Shown here piece after piece: positions 3,346 to 51,634 of a DNA stretch of 64,000 nt (its first letter is position 1; each line of letters opens with the position of its first letter). Both the position numbers and the translations under genes were made by a program. This stretch comes from Planctomycetota bacterium (GTDB lineage Bacteria > Planctomycetota > Phycisphaerae > Phycisphaerales > UBA5793): contig CAUJHZ010000047.1 in assembly GCA_963205185.1 (NCBI GenBank), positions 62,001 through 126,000 on the forward strand, read 5' to 3'. The notes under the pieces were generated by a model, which saw only the letters and a program-made list of their open reading frames with translations, searched no databases and was not told the origin of the DNA.

Positions 3346-4257
3346 ATGCGCAAGGCAAATGTGATCGTGTCCGTAGCGGCGCTGGTGGCAGCCGCCTGGT
3401 GCAGCGCGGGAGCGCTGGGGGACGGGCAGATTCCCGATCGGGCCACGCTGGACGCCATTCTGGGCGGCGGCCAGACGCTCGAAGACTTTGAGAGTTTCGT
3501 CATCAGCGACGGCGGCGCCACGGTGCTGGATATCGCGGTGCTCGATGACCAGTCCATCGCCAACGGCCAAGGGCCGGGGCTCGTCGAAGACGGCGCCACC
3601 TACTCCTCCACAACCCTGCAGTGGAACGGCAACGCCTATTACAGCCTGCAGAGCAGGACCTTTCTCGCCAACGCGGAGACCCTGACGATCACCTACGACC
3701 CCGTCGTTACGGCGATGGGCTGCGATGCCCGTGCGTTCGCCGGCTACGGCTACAACGGCTCGATGCGCGTGTACGACCTCAACAATGCGCTCGTGGGCAC
3801 GATCAACTTCTCGCTCAGCAGCGGCGGCGCCGAGAATGTGTTCCTCGGCTGGGAATGGAACGCCGGCATCTCGCGCGTCGAGATCGATGACTCGACCTGG
3901 TCCTGGAGCCCAGTGATCGATAACCACGGCTACGGCGAGGGCGGCACGACCTACCGCTGCAGCGTCAGCGGACAGTGTCCCGGCACGCTCACCGTTTCCT
4001 GGCAGAACGCAAACCCCGGCCGCCAGCAGGGCATCGTCTTCGCGTCCAGCACCGGCAGTTTCGTCATCCCCGGCGGCGTGTGCCAGGGAACGCAACTGGG
4101 ACTGGGCTCGCAGAACATCCGGCTCGTCAACACCATCGGCACCGGCAACGGCTCGGGATCCGTCAACGGGAGAGCGGGCACCGCTGCCTGCGGCGGCTAT
4201 CTCCAACTCGTCGAAGTGCCCGGCTGCGCGACAAGCAACGTCGCAGGACCGATCTGA
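3346..4257 (+). CDS. Secreted protein of unknown function
   Basis: A 303-aa exported protein. A signal peptide with basic start, hydrophobic core and Ala-rich cleavage region spans about residues 1-25. The mature part is rich in Gly, Ser, Thr and aromatics with predicted beta structure, including a GYGYNGSMRVYDL stretch typical of extracellular beta-sandwich/lectin-like domains. The last 95 residues have a Cys-containing segment (YRCSVSGQCPGTL ... PGCATSNVAG) that loosely resembles the C-terminal module of the next three secreted proteins. It is followed by a strong terminator, so it is probably monocistronic. I do not recognise a named family. Confidence 0.8.
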   Translation: MRKANVIVSVAALVAAAWCSAGALGDGQIPDRATLDAILGGGQTLEDFESFVISDGGATVLDIAVLDDQSIANGQGPGLVEDGATYSSTTLQWNGNAYYSLQSRTFLANAETLTITYDPVVTAMGCDARAFAGYGYNGSMRVYDLNNALVGTINFSLSSGGAENVFLGWEWNAGISRVEIDDSTWSWSPVIDNHGYGEGGTTYRCSVSGQCPGTLTVSWQNANPGRQQGIVFASSTGSFVIPGGVCQGTQLGLGSQNIRLVNTIGTGNGSGSVNGRAGTAACGGYLQLVEVPGCATSNVAGPI

Positions 4258-4283
4258 TCGACACTGTCTGATTCACTTCGATC

Positions 4284-4323
4284 GAATCCTCACCCGTCGC
4301 GGGTGAGGATTCTCATTTTCTTT
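4284..4323. terminator. Rho-independent terminator
   Basis: A perfect 13-bp stem (GAATCCTCACCCG and its complement, 4284-4296 and 4300-4312) with a 3-nt loop, followed by TCATTTTCTTT. It ends the gene at 3346 and lies in the gap to the convergent carboxypeptidase gene, so it may serve both strands. Confidence 0.85.
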
Positions 4324-4345
4324 GGATGCCCGACGCGTGCACTGG

Positions 4346-5920
4346 TTACTCGATCGTGCGCTCGACGACGTTCGACCGCTTCTCTGATTGGACGCTCTGG
4401 ATCAGGATATCGATCGGCGGCGCATTGCTGGGAATGCGTCGCAGCAGCGTGGCCACGCCCTGCTGGTCGGCCGTGGCTGAGCCGATCAGCGTCGGCTGAT
4501 TGAGATTCAGCGTGACGTTGAGTTGCGGCACGAACGTCGAGCCGTAGCCGTTGAAGGTGTAGACGAAATACGTCCGGGCGCCAGGCGCGCCGCGGTGAGA
4601 CTCGAGCGCGGCCTGTCCGCCGCGCACGAGACCGGTTGCCTCAAGCAGCATCCGCGTCTCGAGACCGGCCTGGGCGAGGTGCATCGCGCCGGCGAAGATC
4701 TCCTCGGCGGTGGGCAGGATCTGACTGGCCGGCAGGAGGAAGCCGTACTGCCCGGTGTCGCGCAGTTCGAAGGTAAAGCCCCACGCGGCGCGCTCCTGGT
4801 AGGTGTAGTCCTGCATCACTCCGCTCGACGGGTAGAGGCGCGAGTACCACGGCCCGGGCGAATACGTGACGTTGTGCACGGCGCGAATGGCATTGGCGAT
4901 TTCCTGGGCCAGCGGCGTATAGACGCCGCCGTCGATGCTCGGGCTGGGCGTCCACGCCCAGGGGTAGAGGACGTACTGCGAGTAACTGTGGATGTCCACG
5001 TGGCGCACAATCCACGGCCGGTCGAGCAGAAAATCGCGCAGCGCAATCGTCTCGGGTTCGCTGAACGGCCCGGTGCCGCAGTAGAGATCGCTGCCGGGAT
5101 TGTGTGAGGAACCGACGCCTCCCCATTTGTACGACCAGTTGCGATTGAGATCGATGCCGAACGTGCCGTTGCCGTTGTTGCGGCGGTTCTTGCGCCAGAG
5201 CCGGTTGCTCGTCCAGGTGTACACGTAGCCATCGACGTTGACAATCGGGATGATGTAGAACACGCGCGAATCGACGAGCGCGGTCAGCGCAGGATCGACG
5301 CCGTATTGACGGATCAGTTGATCGGCGATGTAGGTCGTGGTCATACCGGCCACCCACTCGCGCGCATGCTGGACGCCGTTGAAGAGCACGCCGGGCACGC
5401 CGGGGCCGGGAGCGGCGCCGGTGATCTGGATGCCTTTGATCGTTCGGCCTTCGACGCTTGTGCCGACGGTGAAGACGGTCGCAATGCCCGGCTGCAGCGC
5501 GGCGAGTTCATCGAGATACGCGTTGATCTGGTCGTAGGTCTTGTAGTCCTCGAACCAGAGCCCCGCGTTGGCCTCCCCGCGCCCGGCGGTGCGCGACTCG
5601 CGATCGATCAATTGCTGCACATCGGGAATGAGCAGTTCGTAGGCAATGCCGGCCGCATCGAGCGCGGCCAGATCACCGGCGGCGAGGCGGACGTCGATCG
5701 GGCCGACACCAACGCCGTGCGACCACACGTCGGGGGTGAGGCGCAGCAGGGCGTTGAGTTCGGCCTCGTTGCGCGGCGTCGCGCGCACGATCGCGTGACC
5801 GTCGAAGCGAAGACGCCCATCGACGGGCTCTGCCCCGGGTCCTGCGGGCGGCGCGGGTTGGGCAGCGGTTGCGGTACAGAGGCTGGCCAGAAGTGCGGCG
5901 GCGGCAAGCAGTCGGTGCAT
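4346..5920 (-). CDS. Secreted M14-family zinc carboxypeptidase with C-terminal module
   Basis: A 524-aa extracellular metallocarboxypeptidase that trims C-terminal residues from peptides. It has a signal peptide (1-20), an inhibitory-propeptide-like region (about 30-115) and a catalytic domain (about 123-425). Zinc ligands are visible as H185-x2-E188 (QHAREW) and H311 (DIHSYSQYVLYPW). Substrate Asn-Arg is in DLNRNW (259-260) and the catalytic Glu is E385 (GFTFELRDTG). A further ~95-residue tail (430-524) resembles those of the neighbouring secreted proteins. The ATG at 5920 is preferred because it starts the signal peptide and has GGGAGAG 7 nt before it; the frame is open further upstream but that part is not signal-like. 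Confidence 0.93.
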   Translation of the reverse strand: MHRLLAAAALLASLCTATAAQPAPPAGPGAEPVDGRLRFDGHAIVRATPRNEAELNALLRLTPDVWSHGVGVGPIDVRLAAGDLAALDAAGIAYELLIPDVQQLIDRESRTAGRGEANAGLWFEDYKTYDQINAYLDELAALQPGIATVFTVGTSVEGRTIKGIQITGAAPGPGVPGVLFNGVQHAREWVAGMTTTYIADQLIRQYGVDPALTALVDSRVFYIIPIVNVDGYVYTWTSNRLWRKNRRNNGNGTFGIDLNRNWSYKWGGVGSSHNPGSDLYCGTGPFSEPETIALRDFLLDRPWIVRHVDIHSYSQYVLYPWAWTPSPSIDGGVYTPLAQEIANAIRAVHNVTYSPGPWYSRLYPSSGVMQDYTYQERAAWGFTFELRDTGQYGFLLPASQILPTAEEIFAGAMHLAQAGLETRMLLEATGLVRGGQAALESHRGAPGARTYFVYTFNGYGSTFVPQLNVTLNLNQPTLIGSATADQQGVATLLRRIPSNAPPIDILIQSVQSEKRSNVVERTIE

Positions 5921-6012
5921 GGCGTTCTCTCCCTCGGTGCGCGGCGGGCGCAAGTCCATGGGTAGTGTACCACAAAACGAGCCGTGCGGGGCGGTCGATC
6001 GGGCGGATCGGC

Positions 6013-6018
6013 TATGAT
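6013..6018 (+). promoter_or_regulatory. -10 box of a probably leaderless gene (MOSC)
   Basis: TATGAT lies 8 nt before the ATG at 6027 and there is no Shine-Dalgarno sequence. Transcription would start at or next to the start codon. Confidence 0.45.
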
Positions 6019-6026
6019 CCCGCACC

Positions 6027-6515
6027 ATGAGCCAGACCACCGCCGGCCGCGTTGAAGACCTCTTCATCACTGATCGCGAATCCGCGCCGATGCAATCGGT
6101 TGCGAGCGTCATGGCGCTGGCCGGCCAGGGGCTCGAGGGAGATCGCTACGGCTCGAAGCGCGGCACCTTCTCCGACAGCGAGAACAAGCCGGTGGAGCCG
6201 GAGCAGCAGATTACGCTCATCGAGGCCGAGGCCATCGAGGGTGCGCAGCACGAGTACGAGATCGAACTGGCGCCGATCCAATCACGCCGAAACGTCCTGA
6301 CGCGCGGCGTGGCGCTCAACCACCTCGTCGGCCGCGAGTTCAAGGTGGGCCATGAGGTCGTGCTGCGCGGCATCCGACTCTGCGAGCCGTGCGGCCATCT
6401 CGAAAAACTCACGCGCGAAGGCGTCCGCAAGTCGCTCATCCATCGCGGCGGGCTGCGCGCTGAGATCGTGCGCGGCGGGATGATCCACCGGGGCGACCCG
6501 ATCGCCGGCGCCTGA
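6027..6515 (+). CDS. MOSC domain protein
   Basis: A 162-aa stand-alone MOSC (molybdenum cofactor sulfurase C-terminal) domain. Family features are GDRYGSKRGTFSD, PEQQITLIEAEAIEG, the conserved RRNVLTRGVALNHLVGREF core and the Cys-bearing LCEPCGHLEK segment. MOSC proteins bind sulfur or handle pterin-cofactor sulfur and N-hydroxylated compounds; the exact substrate cannot be read here. It is divergent from the carboxypeptidase gene. No SD is visible. Confidence 0.9.
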   Translation: MSQTTAGRVEDLFITDRESAPMQSVASVMALAGQGLEGDRYGSKRGTFSDSENKPVEPEQQITLIEAEAIEGAQHEYEIELAPIQSRRNVLTRGVALNHLVGREFKVGHEVVLRGIRLCEPCGHLEKLTREGVRKSLIHRGGLRAEIVRGGMIHRGDPIAGA

Positions 6516-6665
6516 CGCTTCCGAATTCGCACATTGCCAGCTCGAATGGGTCCGAACGGGGCGAGATTCCCGGGCGATTCGCCCCCTTTGCGGTCCGATT
6601 GCAAACATCAGCGCCGCAGATCGTCAACAAGACATTACAATGCCGTGTCTCTGAGAGGAGGAGTC

Positions 6666-8228
6666 ATGCTCAAAGCACGTACGAGAACCCGCTCCGCGGC
6701 GGTTCGATCGATCAAGGTTGTCACTTTCGGCTCGGCTGCGCTGGTCGAGGGCGCCCTCGGCTCCGCCGCTGCGCTGGCCCAGGCGCCGGCGTTCTATCCG
6801 ACCGCCCCAGGCTCACACGACATTGCCGCGGGTGATTTCAACCGCGACGGCTTTCCGGATCTCGCCGTCGGCTCATCGACGGGCGCGATCACCATCCTGA
6901 CCAACGACGGGCACGGTGGCTTTGCCGATGCGCGCACCCTCAACACTGGCGGCGGAGACTACATGGCCATCGGCGACCTCGACGGCGATCGCGATGCCGA
7001 CATCGTCTCGGCTCTCGGCACCGCCGTGCGCGTCATGCTCAACGACGGCACAGGACAGTTCGGCGGCTCGCTCGAATACTCAGCCTCGGCGATGATCCAC
7101 GGCGTCGCACTTGGCGACGTCAACCACGATGGTGTGCCGGACCTCGTGCTCAGCGAGTTCGCGGGCAACATCTGGAAGTACGAAATCATGCTCAACGACG
7201 GCCACGGCGCATTCCTGTCCGTGGCCACCGGCGAATACGACACGCTCGATCCTCAGCCGGCCGACTGGAGCGCGGTCACCGGCGACTTTGACGGCGATGG
7301 CGACGTCGATGCGGCGATGATGCAGCAGGCCTACGGCACCGGCGGAAACTACCACGCCGTGCACGTTCACCTGCTCATCAACGGCGGCGACGGCAGGCAG
7401 TGGACGCGAGACACACAGGTCTTCGATCAGGGTGACTTCGCCGATCCGCCGCAGCATCTGGTCGCGGGCGACTTCGACGGCGACGGCGATCTCGATCTCA
7501 TGTACAACGACGGCGGCGGCTACGGTGGCTACAACGTGATGCTGCGCCATCTGGCCAACGACGGCCACGGAGAGTTCTCCACGAGCTTTCTGTGGTCTCC
7601 CACGCTCGACAACTACACCCGGGGAGTCGCGCTGAGTGATTACGACGGCGACGGCGGCATTGACAGCGTCGCCGTCGTGAACATCGGTTCGGCTCAGCGG
7701 CAGTGCGCCGTCTACCTGCTGCGCAGACCGGGCCAGTACGTGCTCTTCCGCGACACCGAGCATGGCAGGGCGGATGCACTGATCCTGCCGGAACTCAATG
7801 GCGACGGCTTGCGCGATGTGGTCACGGTCGTCTCATATCCTGCAGCGGGCGTTCTCGTCTCGCTCAATGCGTACGTGCCGCCGCGGCCGGTGCTGGTGCA
7901 GAGCCCGCTGCAGCGCGGCCAGGCGACGACGTTCACCGTCAGCGGCGCGCAGCCCGGCGAACGCGTGCACCTGCTCTATAGCCTTGCGGGCACCGACATG
8001 TCCGTCGGCCTGAGCGTCCTCGGCGGCGTCTCGATCGATCTCACCCGGCCGTTCCTCGCGTTCGCTGCGGCGACCGCCGACGGATCGGGCGAGGCGCAGG
8101 TGGTGCGCATCATTCCGCCGCAAGCCCCGCCAGGCGCGATCCTGGCCACACAGGCGGTCATCCGCCGCGGCCCGGGCGGTGCGGATTCGGTCAAGACGAA
8201 TTTCATCACCGCGCCGATTCAGCCGTAG
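6666..8228 (+). CDS. Secreted FG-GAP/VCBS repeat protein with C-terminal module
   Basis: A 520-aa secreted beta-propeller-type protein. The signal peptide ends near Ala39 (AAALAQ). At least seven VCBS/FG-GAP repeats follow, each with a calcium-loop motif such as GDFNRDGFPDL, GDLDGDRDADI, GDVNHDGVPDL, GDFDGDGDVDA and GDFDGDGDLDL. The last ~110 residues form a separate module starting near PVLVQSPLQRGQ, comparable with those in the carboxypeptidase and the beta-helix protein. The ATG at 6666 has a GAGGAGGAG ribosome binding site 4-5 nt upstream; a possible -10 TACAAT is at 6636-6641. Confidence 0.9.
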   Translation: MLKARTRTRSAAVRSIKVVTFGSAALVEGALGSAAALAQAPAFYPTAPGSHDIAAGDFNRDGFPDLAVGSSTGAITILTNDGHGGFADARTLNTGGGDYMAIGDLDGDRDADIVSALGTAVRVMLNDGTGQFGGSLEYSASAMIHGVALGDVNHDGVPDLVLSEFAGNIWKYEIMLNDGHGAFLSVATGEYDTLDPQPADWSAVTGDFDGDGDVDAAMMQQAYGTGGNYHAVHVHLLINGGDGRQWTRDTQVFDQGDFADPPQHLVAGDFDGDGDLDLMYNDGGGYGGYNVMLRHLANDGHGEFSTSFLWSPTLDNYTRGVALSDYDGDGGIDSVAVVNIGSAQRQCAVYLLRRPGQYVLFRDTEHGRADALILPELNGDGLRDVVTVVSYPAAGVLVSLNAYVPPRPVLVQSPLQRGQATTFTVSGAQPGERVHLLYSLAGTDMSVGLSVLGGVSIDLTRPFLAFAAATADGSGEAQVVRIIPPQAPPGAILATQAVIRRGPGGADSVKTNFITAPIQP

Positions 8229-8265
8229 AACATTGCCTCCTTCGCATCGCCCTGCCAGAACCTAC

Positions 8266-8297
8266 CATCCGATTCGACCGGCGGTCGAATCGGATGG
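8266..8297. repeat. Perfect 32-bp palindrome reaching into a ribosome binding site
   Basis: Two 16-bp arms without mismatch and without loop (left arm CCATCCGATTCGACCG). It begins 38 bp after the stop of the FG-GAP gene and its last two bases are the first two of the GGAGG ribosome binding site (8296-8300) of the CoA-binding gene. No T-run follows. It could be a dimeric regulator's operator, a hairpin hiding the ribosome binding site, or an RNA end element. Confidence 0.8.
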
Positions 8298-8305
8298 AGG
8301 CTCGC

Positions 8306-8665
8306 ATGCGCGTCATGATCATCGGCGCTTCGAACGATCGGCACAGGTTCGGCAACAAGGCGGTGCGGGCGCATCTGCGCCAGAAGCACACCGTGCTGCC
8401 GGTCAATCCGCACGAGCATCAGGTCGAAGGCCAGCGCGTCTGGCCCGACGTGAAAGAAGTGCCCGGTCCGATCGACCGCGCGCTCTTCTATGTGCCGGCG
8501 CACATCGGGCTCGAAGTCATCGGGCCGCTCGCGGAGCGCGGCGATGTGGGCGAAGTCTGGCTCAACCCCGGCGCCGAATCGGATGAACTCATCGCGCGGG
8601 CAAAGGAACTCGGCTTTGTTCCCATCTTGGCGTGCGCGATCATCGACATCGGCGAGCGGCCGTGA
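8306..8665 (+). CDS. CoA-binding domain protein (YccU-like)
   Basis: A 119-aa single Rossmann domain of the CoA-binding (succinyl-CoA-synthetase-like) family. It shows the N-terminal MIIGASNDRHRFGNKAVRA loop, the VNPHEHQVEG strand-turn and the EVWLNPGAESDELIARAKE helix. These proteins bind CoA or another nucleotide; their role is unclear. The ATG at 8306 follows GGAGG by 5 nt, so it is preferred to the in-frame ATG at 8294, which lies inside the palindrome. Confidence 0.88.
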   Translation: MRVMIIGASNDRHRFGNKAVRAHLRQKHTVLPVNPHEHQVEGQRVWPDVKEVPGPIDRALFYVPAHIGLEVIGPLAERGDVGEVWLNPGAESDELIARAKELGFVPILACAIIDIGERP

Positions 8666-8671
8666 GTCTCG

Positions 8672-8812
8672 GCAGCGGCCAATCTGCAGGTCATTCGCTC
8701 GGAACAGGGCAGGGTGCCCGAGCACGCGCGGCTGCTGACCGATCTGATGCACGCGCGCACTTCGAGATACAAAGCAGACTCTCACGCAGAGGCGCCGGGT
8801 TCGCAGAGTTGA
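8672..8812 (+). pseudogene. Copied 3' end of waaA (Kdo transferase)
   Basis: Just after the CoA-binding gene stop, a 46-codon stretch reads as the C-terminus of the Kdo transferase encoded at 18456-19763. Both contain VPEHARLLTDLMHARTS and HAEAPG shortly before the stop. At nucleotide level about 50 bases (GTGCCCGAG ... CGCACTTC) are identical. It has no start codon, no ribosome binding site and no catalytic domain, so it is a gene remnant or a fragment carried along with the repeat that overlaps its end. Confidence 0.8.
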
Positions 8813-8852
8813 AATCTGTACTTCTCTGCGCTCGCTGCGCCTCCGCGTGAGA
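8780..8852. repeat. Inverted-arm dispersed repeat, copy 1
   Basis: A 73-bp element with arms TCTCACGCAGAGGCGC at the left and GCGCCTCCGCGTGAGA at the right, one mismatch between them. A second copy lies at 18411-18488 and a half copy at 51602-51634. It overlaps the end of the waaA remnant. Confidence 0.75.
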
Positions 8853-8861
8853 TGCATTTGC

Positions 8862-10913
8862 CTACGGGAACCGATAACCCACGGCGTTGCTCACAGCGCA
8901 TGCAGCGTGATCGACCGCCTGGAGGATGATCGCGCGGCCGCTGGCGGCGCCGGGGATGCTGATGATCTTCGACGCGTAGCCGTTGGCGTCGGCGGTGCTG
9001 TGCGCTGCGATGCGCGGGTTGGCGATGTCGATGGTCAGCCCAGGGCAACCGGGCACGCCCGTCGAGCCGGTTGCAAAGCCATACACGAAGTACACGACAT
9101 TTCCCGGCGTCGCGCCGGCGGCCTGCAACTGGTTGTCGCGCCCCGCCACCCCTGGCCTCGGATGCACGGCGACGAAGCCGGCGCTTGTACCTTGAAACTC
9201 ATACGCGCCCATGTCGACGATGGGAATGGATCCGACGCCGGCGTCGGGCATGCCGGGATCATCAACGCGGCGCGGCAGCCCATCGAGATCGACCTCGGTT
9301 GTCACGAAGTCGTTATCACCCGCATCAATGCACGGCGAACTGGCGCTGAGGCCGTAGTTGCCGGTAAGCAGGTCTACGAACTTCGGATCGACGTCGAGGT
9401 TGCCAACGCCCGGCCATCCGCCCTCGACGTCACTGCGGCTCACCGTCACTCGTTCACTTCGGTCTACCATCGAACCAGGCGAATTCCCCCAGATGATGGA
9501 ATTGATGATCGAGCCGGCCGCGCCAGGCGCATCGGATATGAACGCCCCCCCGCCACCTTGCGACGAGGCGTTGGCGGCGAGCGTGCAGTTATTCAACTGA
9601 AGCGTCGACGTTTCGCTGAAGAGGCCCCCTCCAGCCAGACGGCCCTCGTTGTGGAGGAAGGCGCAGTTTGAGACGGAAGCGCCGGCTATGTGGTAGAGCC
9701 CTCCGCCGTACCGTGCCGCTCGATTCCCGTCAAAGGTTGAAGCAATCCAGTCGAACGAGCCCTCCGCTGTGAAGGCGCCGCCGCCTTCGAAAGCAGTATT
9801 CTGGACCAGCGTCACTCGTTCAAAGCGTGCCTCGGTGACTCCGTGCGCGGTCCCGGCATAGATACCACCGCCACTCACTCCATGGTTCGCTGTGAAGGCG
9901 GAGTCTCGGATGTCGAGCACGGTCGAGCCTCGTTCGGCTGAAAGACCTGCGCCTCGACCCGCTGCGTTGCCGCTGAAATCGCAATCCTCAACGACTAGGC
10001 TGGCACCGTAGTAAACGTATAGCCCTCCGCCAGAACTGTCCGCACCAAATGTCGGGTCGACCGAGCGAATGACGTTGTCTCGTAACGCTGTCCGTGTGAG
10101 AGTCGCGGAGGCGGCGTCCAGTAAGAGACCTCCTCCGTTTGCATGATCGGCCTCGATCCGGTTTCCAGCGATTTCACAGTCCATGATCCGAAGTTCCGTC
10201 ATCGCGGATGTGTAGATGCCTCCTCCTTCGCCAAGGAATCGATCGTTGGGCAGTAGGTGATAGTCGAGAATGTGGCAATTGATCATCTCAAGTGAGGATT
10301 GGTTAGCCCTCACACCTGCACCCCGTTCTCCGGAAGACCGGTTCTGACGCACCGTGGTTTGGATGAGGCGGATGACCGGGGTAGTCGAGATGGCATTGAT
10401 GCTGATGCCACCGGGCCCGATGTCGGAGAAACAGTTCTCGATGATGCAGTTGAGGATGTCAACATCGGCATCGGTGATGCAGATTCCTCCTGCCCACTCG
10501 TGCCGCCCGTTGCGGATCGTGAACCCTTCGATCGTGACGGGTCGATCATCCGGCAGGGTGCAGAAAGTGAAGCCGAAGCCATCGTTCTCACAGTCAATGA
10601 TGCAGTTGTCAGGCCCGCCGGACGAGCGGATGCTCATCTCCTTCTGGAAGAATTCGATGTTCTTGTTGCCGGGTCCGGTGTAGACGCCGTCGGCGACCTC
10701 GACGCTGTCGAAGTGATCGGCCGCGTTGATCCCCGCCTGGATAGTCGCCTTGGGTCCGTTGGGCGCCTCGCAGACCGGCGAGAGCCCGGTCCACGAATCA
10801 TCGCCGCACGAGCCGTTGACGTAGTACGTCGTCTGGCTGAGCGCGGTCGAAGTGATTGAAAGTACCGCGCTCATTGCGAGCGCACCGATGCCGCAGGTGA
10901 TTCGGATCGACAT
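8862..10913 (-). CDS. Secreted right-handed beta-helix protein with choice-of-anchor Q region and C-terminal module
   Basis: A 683-aa secreted protein. After a signal peptide (1-26, ending TALSQ) comes a parallel beta-helix with many short repeats of the kind 'GGGIYAG ... NTAFEGGGAF' (about 50-500). Then follows the YGLSASSPCIDAGDN ... VDMGAYEFQG segment typical of choice-of-anchor Q proteins, and finally a ~95-residue module (PGNVVYFVYGFATGSTG ... LQAVDHAACAVSNAV). It is probably a surface adhesin or polysaccharide-binding protein. The ATG at 10913 has a perfect AGGAGG 7 nt upstream; a longer reading from 11021 lacks one. Confidence 0.9.
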   Translation of the reverse strand: MSIRITCGIGALAMSAVLSITSTALSQTTYYVNGSCGDDSWTGLSPVCEAPNGPKATIQAGINAADHFDSVEVADGVYTGPGNKNIEFFQKEMSIRSSGGPDNCIIDCENDGFGFTFCTLPDDRPVTIEGFTIRNGRHEWAGGICITDADVDILNCIIENCFSDIGPGGISINAISTTPVIRLIQTTVRQNRSSGERGAGVRANQSSLEMINCHILDYHLLPNDRFLGEGGGIYTSAMTELRIMDCEIAGNRIEADHANGGGLLLDAASATLTRTALRDNVIRSVDPTFGADSSGGGLYVYYGASLVVEDCDFSGNAAGRGAGLSAERGSTVLDIRDSAFTANHGVSGGGIYAGTAHGVTEARFERVTLVQNTAFEGGGAFTAEGSFDWIASTFDGNRAARYGGGLYHIAGASVSNCAFLHNEGRLAGGGLFSETSTLQLNNCTLAANASSQGGGGAFISDAPGAAGSIINSIIWGNSPGSMVDRSERVTVSRSDVEGGWPGVGNLDVDPKFVDLLTGNYGLSASSPCIDAGDNDFVTTEVDLDGLPRRVDDPGMPDAGVGSIPIVDMGAYEFQGTSAGFVAVHPRPGVAGRDNQLQAAGATPGNVVYFVYGFATGSTGVPGCPGLTIDIANPRIAAHSTADANGYASKIISIPGAASGRAIILQAVDHAACAVSNAVGYRFP

Positions 10914-18410: not shown

Positions 18411-18488
18411 TCTCACGCGGAGGCGCACAGAGCGCAGAGAATCCCGACTGGGATTTCAATTCTGCGCACCCGGCGCCTCTGCGTGAGA
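18411..18488. repeat. Inverted-arm dispersed repeat, copy 2
   Basis: A 78-bp element with arms TCTCACGCGGAGGCGC and GCGCCTCTGCGTGAGA and an internal small hairpin (AATCCC/GGGATT). It covers the last ten codons and stop of waaA, so the waaA C-terminus appears to be encoded by the repeat. Confidence 0.75.
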
Positions 18489-51601: not shown

Positions 51602-51634
51602 TTCTCACGCAGAGACGCAGAGATCGCGGAGAGG
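51602..51634. repeat. Half copy of the TCTCACGC dispersed repeat
   Basis: TTCTCACGCAGAGACGCAG begins directly after the M16 stop and has no inverted partner. It is copy 3 of the repeat at 8780 and 18411. Confidence 0.6.

Follow-up and report, generated by a model that had tools for sequence, protein, structure and literature searches.

Several kinds of C-terminal tail are found on many unlike exported proteins of one genome. The C-terminal domains (CTDs) of the type IX secretion system (T9SS) in Bacteroidota lie at the extreme C-terminus, behind a Sec signal peptide, on many unlike cargos, and the type A CTDs (Por_Secre_tail in Pfam, PF18962) are Ig-like beta-sandwiches that are recognised in the periplasm (PMC10202324). 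PEP-CTERM tails, which are linked to exosortase, are also C-terminal, and they occur in many copies per genome, in sporadic lineages, and on unlike cargos with signal peptides (PMC1569441). NCBI's choice-of-anchor J and Q domains were probably named for standing before varying anchor signals. Also relevant here, by fold only, is the neocarzinostatin family of apoproteins, which bind chromophores with an Ig-like sandwich.

Here we describe a C-terminal module of about 100 residues in a planctomycete, with a predicted Ig-like fold, that resembles T9SS CTDs and PEP-CTERM tails in its behavior but matches neither. We found no paper that describes it, although our literature search missed most subscription journals.

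Related tails on four neighboring exported proteins

We analyzed a 64,000-nucleotide stretch of the genome (the window), which carries four neighboring genes for exported proteins at 3346-10913. A sequence-only reading had claimed that the carboxypeptidase, FG-GAP, and beta-helix proteins, and more weakly a 303-aa protein, end with a shared tail, that the rest of these proteins are unrelated, and that the tail might be a sorting or surface-binding domain. We confirmed the shared tail, and the phenomenon is much larger than could be seen in the window.

The 303-aa protein (3346..4257, + strand) has a signal peptide, MRKANVIVSVAALVAAAWCSAGA, and matches no family in Pfam or NCBIfam; its 103-aa module is at 3946..4257. 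The M14 zinc carboxypeptidase (4346..5920, - strand) has an activation peptide and a likely start at ATG 5920, with the signal peptide MHRLLAAAALLASLCTATAA; its 104-aa module is at 4346..4660 and has no cysteine. The FG-GAP repeat protein (6666..8228, + strand; likely start at ATG 6666) ends with a 115-aa module at 7881..8228, which contains a QAVIRRGPGG insertion. Finally, the right-handed beta-helix protein (8862..10913, - strand; start at ATG 10913) ends with a 105-aa module at 8862..9179, which has one cysteine pair. Directly before this module is a choice-of-anchor Q domain (9192..9359, - strand; NF041518, 28.2 bits against a cut-off of 25). Neither Pfam nor NCBIfam recognised any of the tails.

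The tails of the carboxypeptidase, FG-GAP, and beta-helix proteins align at about 30-36% identity. Their Smith-Waterman scores were 88 (carboxypeptidase and FG-GAP), 98 (carboxypeptidase and beta-helix), and 90 (FG-GAP and beta-helix), compared to means of 26-30 for shuffled sequences (SD ~5), which is 10-15 SD above the shuffles; 0 of 1000 shuffles reached these scores. The three tails share PG, Y, P, TADxxGxA, IP, and Q. The tail of the 303-aa protein scored 75 against the beta-helix tail (shuffled mean 31, SD 5, 0 of 1000), but only 36 and 22 against the FG-GAP and carboxypeptidase tails, which is within chance. So it is a relative, not the same subtype. We will call the three similar tails subtype A and the cysteine-rich tail of the 303-aa protein subtype B.

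About 210 copies of the module in one genome

A profile of the three subtype A tails found ~114 places in the 4.55-Mb genome at E < 1e-3. The tail of the 303-aa protein alone found about as many, mostly different ones, and its subtype has ~110 copies of its own. Together with the shuffles, this rules out chance or composition as the cause of the similarity. Profile-profile comparison joins the two subtypes into one superfamily (HHalign probability 99.9, E = 1e-33), so we rejected a separate origin for the tail of the 303-aa protein. After iterating the profiles, we had 217 distinct ORFs, including a few fragments, or about 210 copies. There are also 56-aa half-module fragments (SIDxQGGEAIAG...NLIEFTFPN) that lie between intact module genes on two contigs and are probably decayed copies. 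Tails that share a QAVIRRGxxG insertion form their own subtype. In the window this insertion is on the FG-GAP protein, and it may track FG-GAP cargos, so some subtypes could co-evolve with one class of cargo.

Of the 212 copies with a visible stop codon, 211 end within 10 residues of it. The exception is read as a signal peptide, a module, and ~104 more residues. There is one copy per protein, except for one tandem pair. The cargos fall into 74 BLAST-distinct clusters, which include S8, M14, and M28 peptidases, GDSL lipase, CHRD, CBM96, RCC1, FG-GAP, glucose/sorbosone dehydrogenase, beta-helix, and choice-of-anchor J and Q. Using a strict rule of our own, we identified signal peptides in 142 of 181 module-bearing proteins, compared to 13 of 42 control genes from the window (Fisher p = 9e-9). 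Also, about 18 stand-alone genes encode only a signal peptide and one module (mostly subtype B), and several of these are in tandem arrays of 2-4 genes.

The tails are exchanged as modules. Subtype B tails that are 74-85% identical as proteins (DNA up to 84%) are attached to cargos whose best blastp E values are 0.13-3.1, which rules out simple duplication of whole proteins. For 116 of 189 tails, the nearest tail is on another cargo cluster. In two comparisons with congeners, Ka/Ks for the tails was 0.18, which indicates purifying selection. In one congener, a homolog of the beta-helix gene (window 8862-10913 against positions 1-1803 of the congener's locus) has a near-identical tail (92.5% amino acid identity, Ks 0.20) and a conserved N-terminal part, but the beta-helix middle is mostly 25-60% identical with saturated Ks. 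This is a hypervariable or replaced center between conserved ends. A dispersed palindromic intergenic element (CTCACGCRGAGNCGC facing its complement) is found in the window at 8781-8851, 18412-18487, and 51604-51618 (5 matches against 0.3 expected), and a similar element follows the homologous gene in the congener.

Paired cysteines and a predicted Ig-like fold

The cysteines of the module appear and vanish in pairs. Alignment columns 40 and 90 are both cysteine in 141 tails, only one is in 7, and neither is in 55; most tails have 4, 2, or 0 cysteines. This is the signature of disulfides and of an extracytoplasmic location.

Given only 13 sequences, AlphaFold predicted an almost entirely beta structure for the beta-helix protein's tail, with a pLDDT of 96.1. 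The same strand order was predicted for the tail of the 303-aa protein, at a pLDDT of 77. The nearest solved structures include neocarzinostatin, macromomycin, and C-1027 (Foldseek E = 9e-4). The structural alignments to neocarzinostatin (1nco) had VIA Z of 8.4 (93 aligned, rmsd 3.1) and 9.9 (89 aligned, rmsd 2.7), but identities in structural alignments to this family are just 12-22%. A profile search of the PDB also ranked C-1027 apoprotein and actinoxanthin among its best hits, without significance (E = 0.35), and there was no Pfam match to this family. Z values near 8 are common for Ig folds, and Nir2 and antibody-like domains score similarly. We therefore read the module as a predicted Ig-like sandwich and make no functional claim from these matches.

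Distribution in Planctomycetota

No Pfam, NCBIfam, or PHROG model covers the module, and we rejected a phage origin for lack of a PHROG match. All 6 genomes of the window's family (family f1) are saturated with the module, while there is just 1 copy in 295 other genomes of the order. Elsewhere in the phylum, 54 of 390 sampled genomes from outside the window's genus have it. In one distant family (f62) there are 21-93 copies per genome, while others have 1-15. This sporadic many-or-none pattern is like the one by which PEP-CTERM was recognised (PMC1569441). The nearest named records are Phycisphaerales UBA5793 and planctomycete PLA5; another, PLA1, is labelled Vicinamibacteraceae and may be misassigned. 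In the loci from congeners and other families that we examined, the module is again at the C-terminus, within 0-5 residues of the stop except for two copies from one named record at 16-18 residues.

Comparison to T9SS and PEP-CTERM tails

The functionally closest analog is the T9SS type A CTD, which shares the C-terminal position, the Sec signal peptide, the unlike cargos, and an Ig-like sandwich (predicted, for the module). But PF18962 had no hits in the genome, and none of 34 module sequences matched any T9SS model in Pfam or NCBIfam. We found no SprA_N in 11 genomes, although that search had no positive control. No T9SS CTD structure was among the 50 listed fold matches, which is not evidence of absence. 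The module also differs in having paired cysteines and stand-alone copies, and in being found in Planctomycetota.

The module has no PEP motif, transmembrane helix, or basic end. Instead, it is a globular domain that ends on a predicted beta-strand, with final residues that are mostly P, E, N, or Q, and none of the 34 modules matched PF07589. Two exosortase genes (contig C47, 22170-22925, and contig C7, 139055-139825) and about 10 PEP-CTERM tails coexist with the module in this genome. However, 9 of 12 f62 genomes have no detected exosortase and still hold 21-93 modules, so the module does not seem to depend on exosortase, although these genomes are only 87-90% complete. The module-rich families have few or no PEP-CTERM tails (1-12 in f1 and 0-1 in f62), compared to 48-135 in most genomes from two related families (f5 and f6). 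But two other families (f2 and f3) that lack the module are also poor in PEP-CTERM tails.

Possible roles of the module

We favor, with moderate confidence, a C-terminal surface-targeting or retention domain, which supports the proposal from the sequence-only reading. In this view, the protein is exported by Sec, the module folds outside the cytoplasm, where it is usually stapled by one or two disulfides, and a partner in the envelope or at the cell surface recognises it and places or retains the cargo (peptidases, propellers, beta-helices, and FG-GAP proteins) at the surface. The C-terminal position, the unlike cargos, the exchange of tails, and the enrichment of signal peptides all fit this view. 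That a partner exists, that it reads this domain, and whether the result is outer-membrane export or surface retention are inferred. We did not identify a receptor or translocon, and there are no localisation data. Also, the tails diverge widely (median pairwise identity 28%), which is loose for a recognition tag unless the fold itself is read. The stand-alone genes and the protein with ~104 residues after its module show that neither cargo nor an absolute C-terminus is required. We slightly prefer retention by binding, because the signal-peptide-plus-module genes suggest autonomous binding rather than a pure export tag.

Alternatively, the module could be a true export signal, like a T9SS CTD, that is read by an undescribed outer-membrane secretion machine and may be cleaved off after transport. 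The strict C-terminal position, the single copy per protein, the signal peptides, the predicted fold, and the scarcity of PEP-CTERM tails in module-rich lineages are consistent with this. However, the stand-alone modules, the lack of matches to T9SS CTD families, and the low conservation of any single motif make it less likely. In its broadest form, which we view as a tentative possibility, the module would be the signal of an undescribed sorting or secretion system in Planctomycetota, a counterpart of T9SS with its own receptor and translocon, that serves roughly 5% of the genes in one family and is present in distant families of the phylum.

It is more doubtful that each module binds a small molecule or glycan, as the neocarzinostatin-fold apoproteins bind their chromophores, with the localisation of the cargo being secondary. 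The fold matches, the weak, non-significant sequence echo in the PDB, and the stand-alone copies hint at this, but shared Ig folds imply no function. Also, binding modules such as CBMs are probably rarely confined to one C-terminal copy, as this module is in 211 of 212 proteins. A passive cap or spacer that stabilises secreted beta-rich proteins, and that spread by duplication without any receptor, seems quite unlikely. It could explain the great divergence between copies and why the conserved positions are mostly turn residues (G, P, and DxxG). But it would need no C-terminal position, no restriction to certain lineages, and no exchange between unlike cargos.

Planctomycetes export many proteins, and how these reach the surface is poorly known. 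A module on about 210 proteins would outline a surface proteome at a stroke, and it gives a handle on many hypothetical proteins. Its distribution (many copies against none) provides a phylogenetic profile with which the missing receptor or translocon could be sought. The module would deserve its own model in Pfam or NCBIfam.
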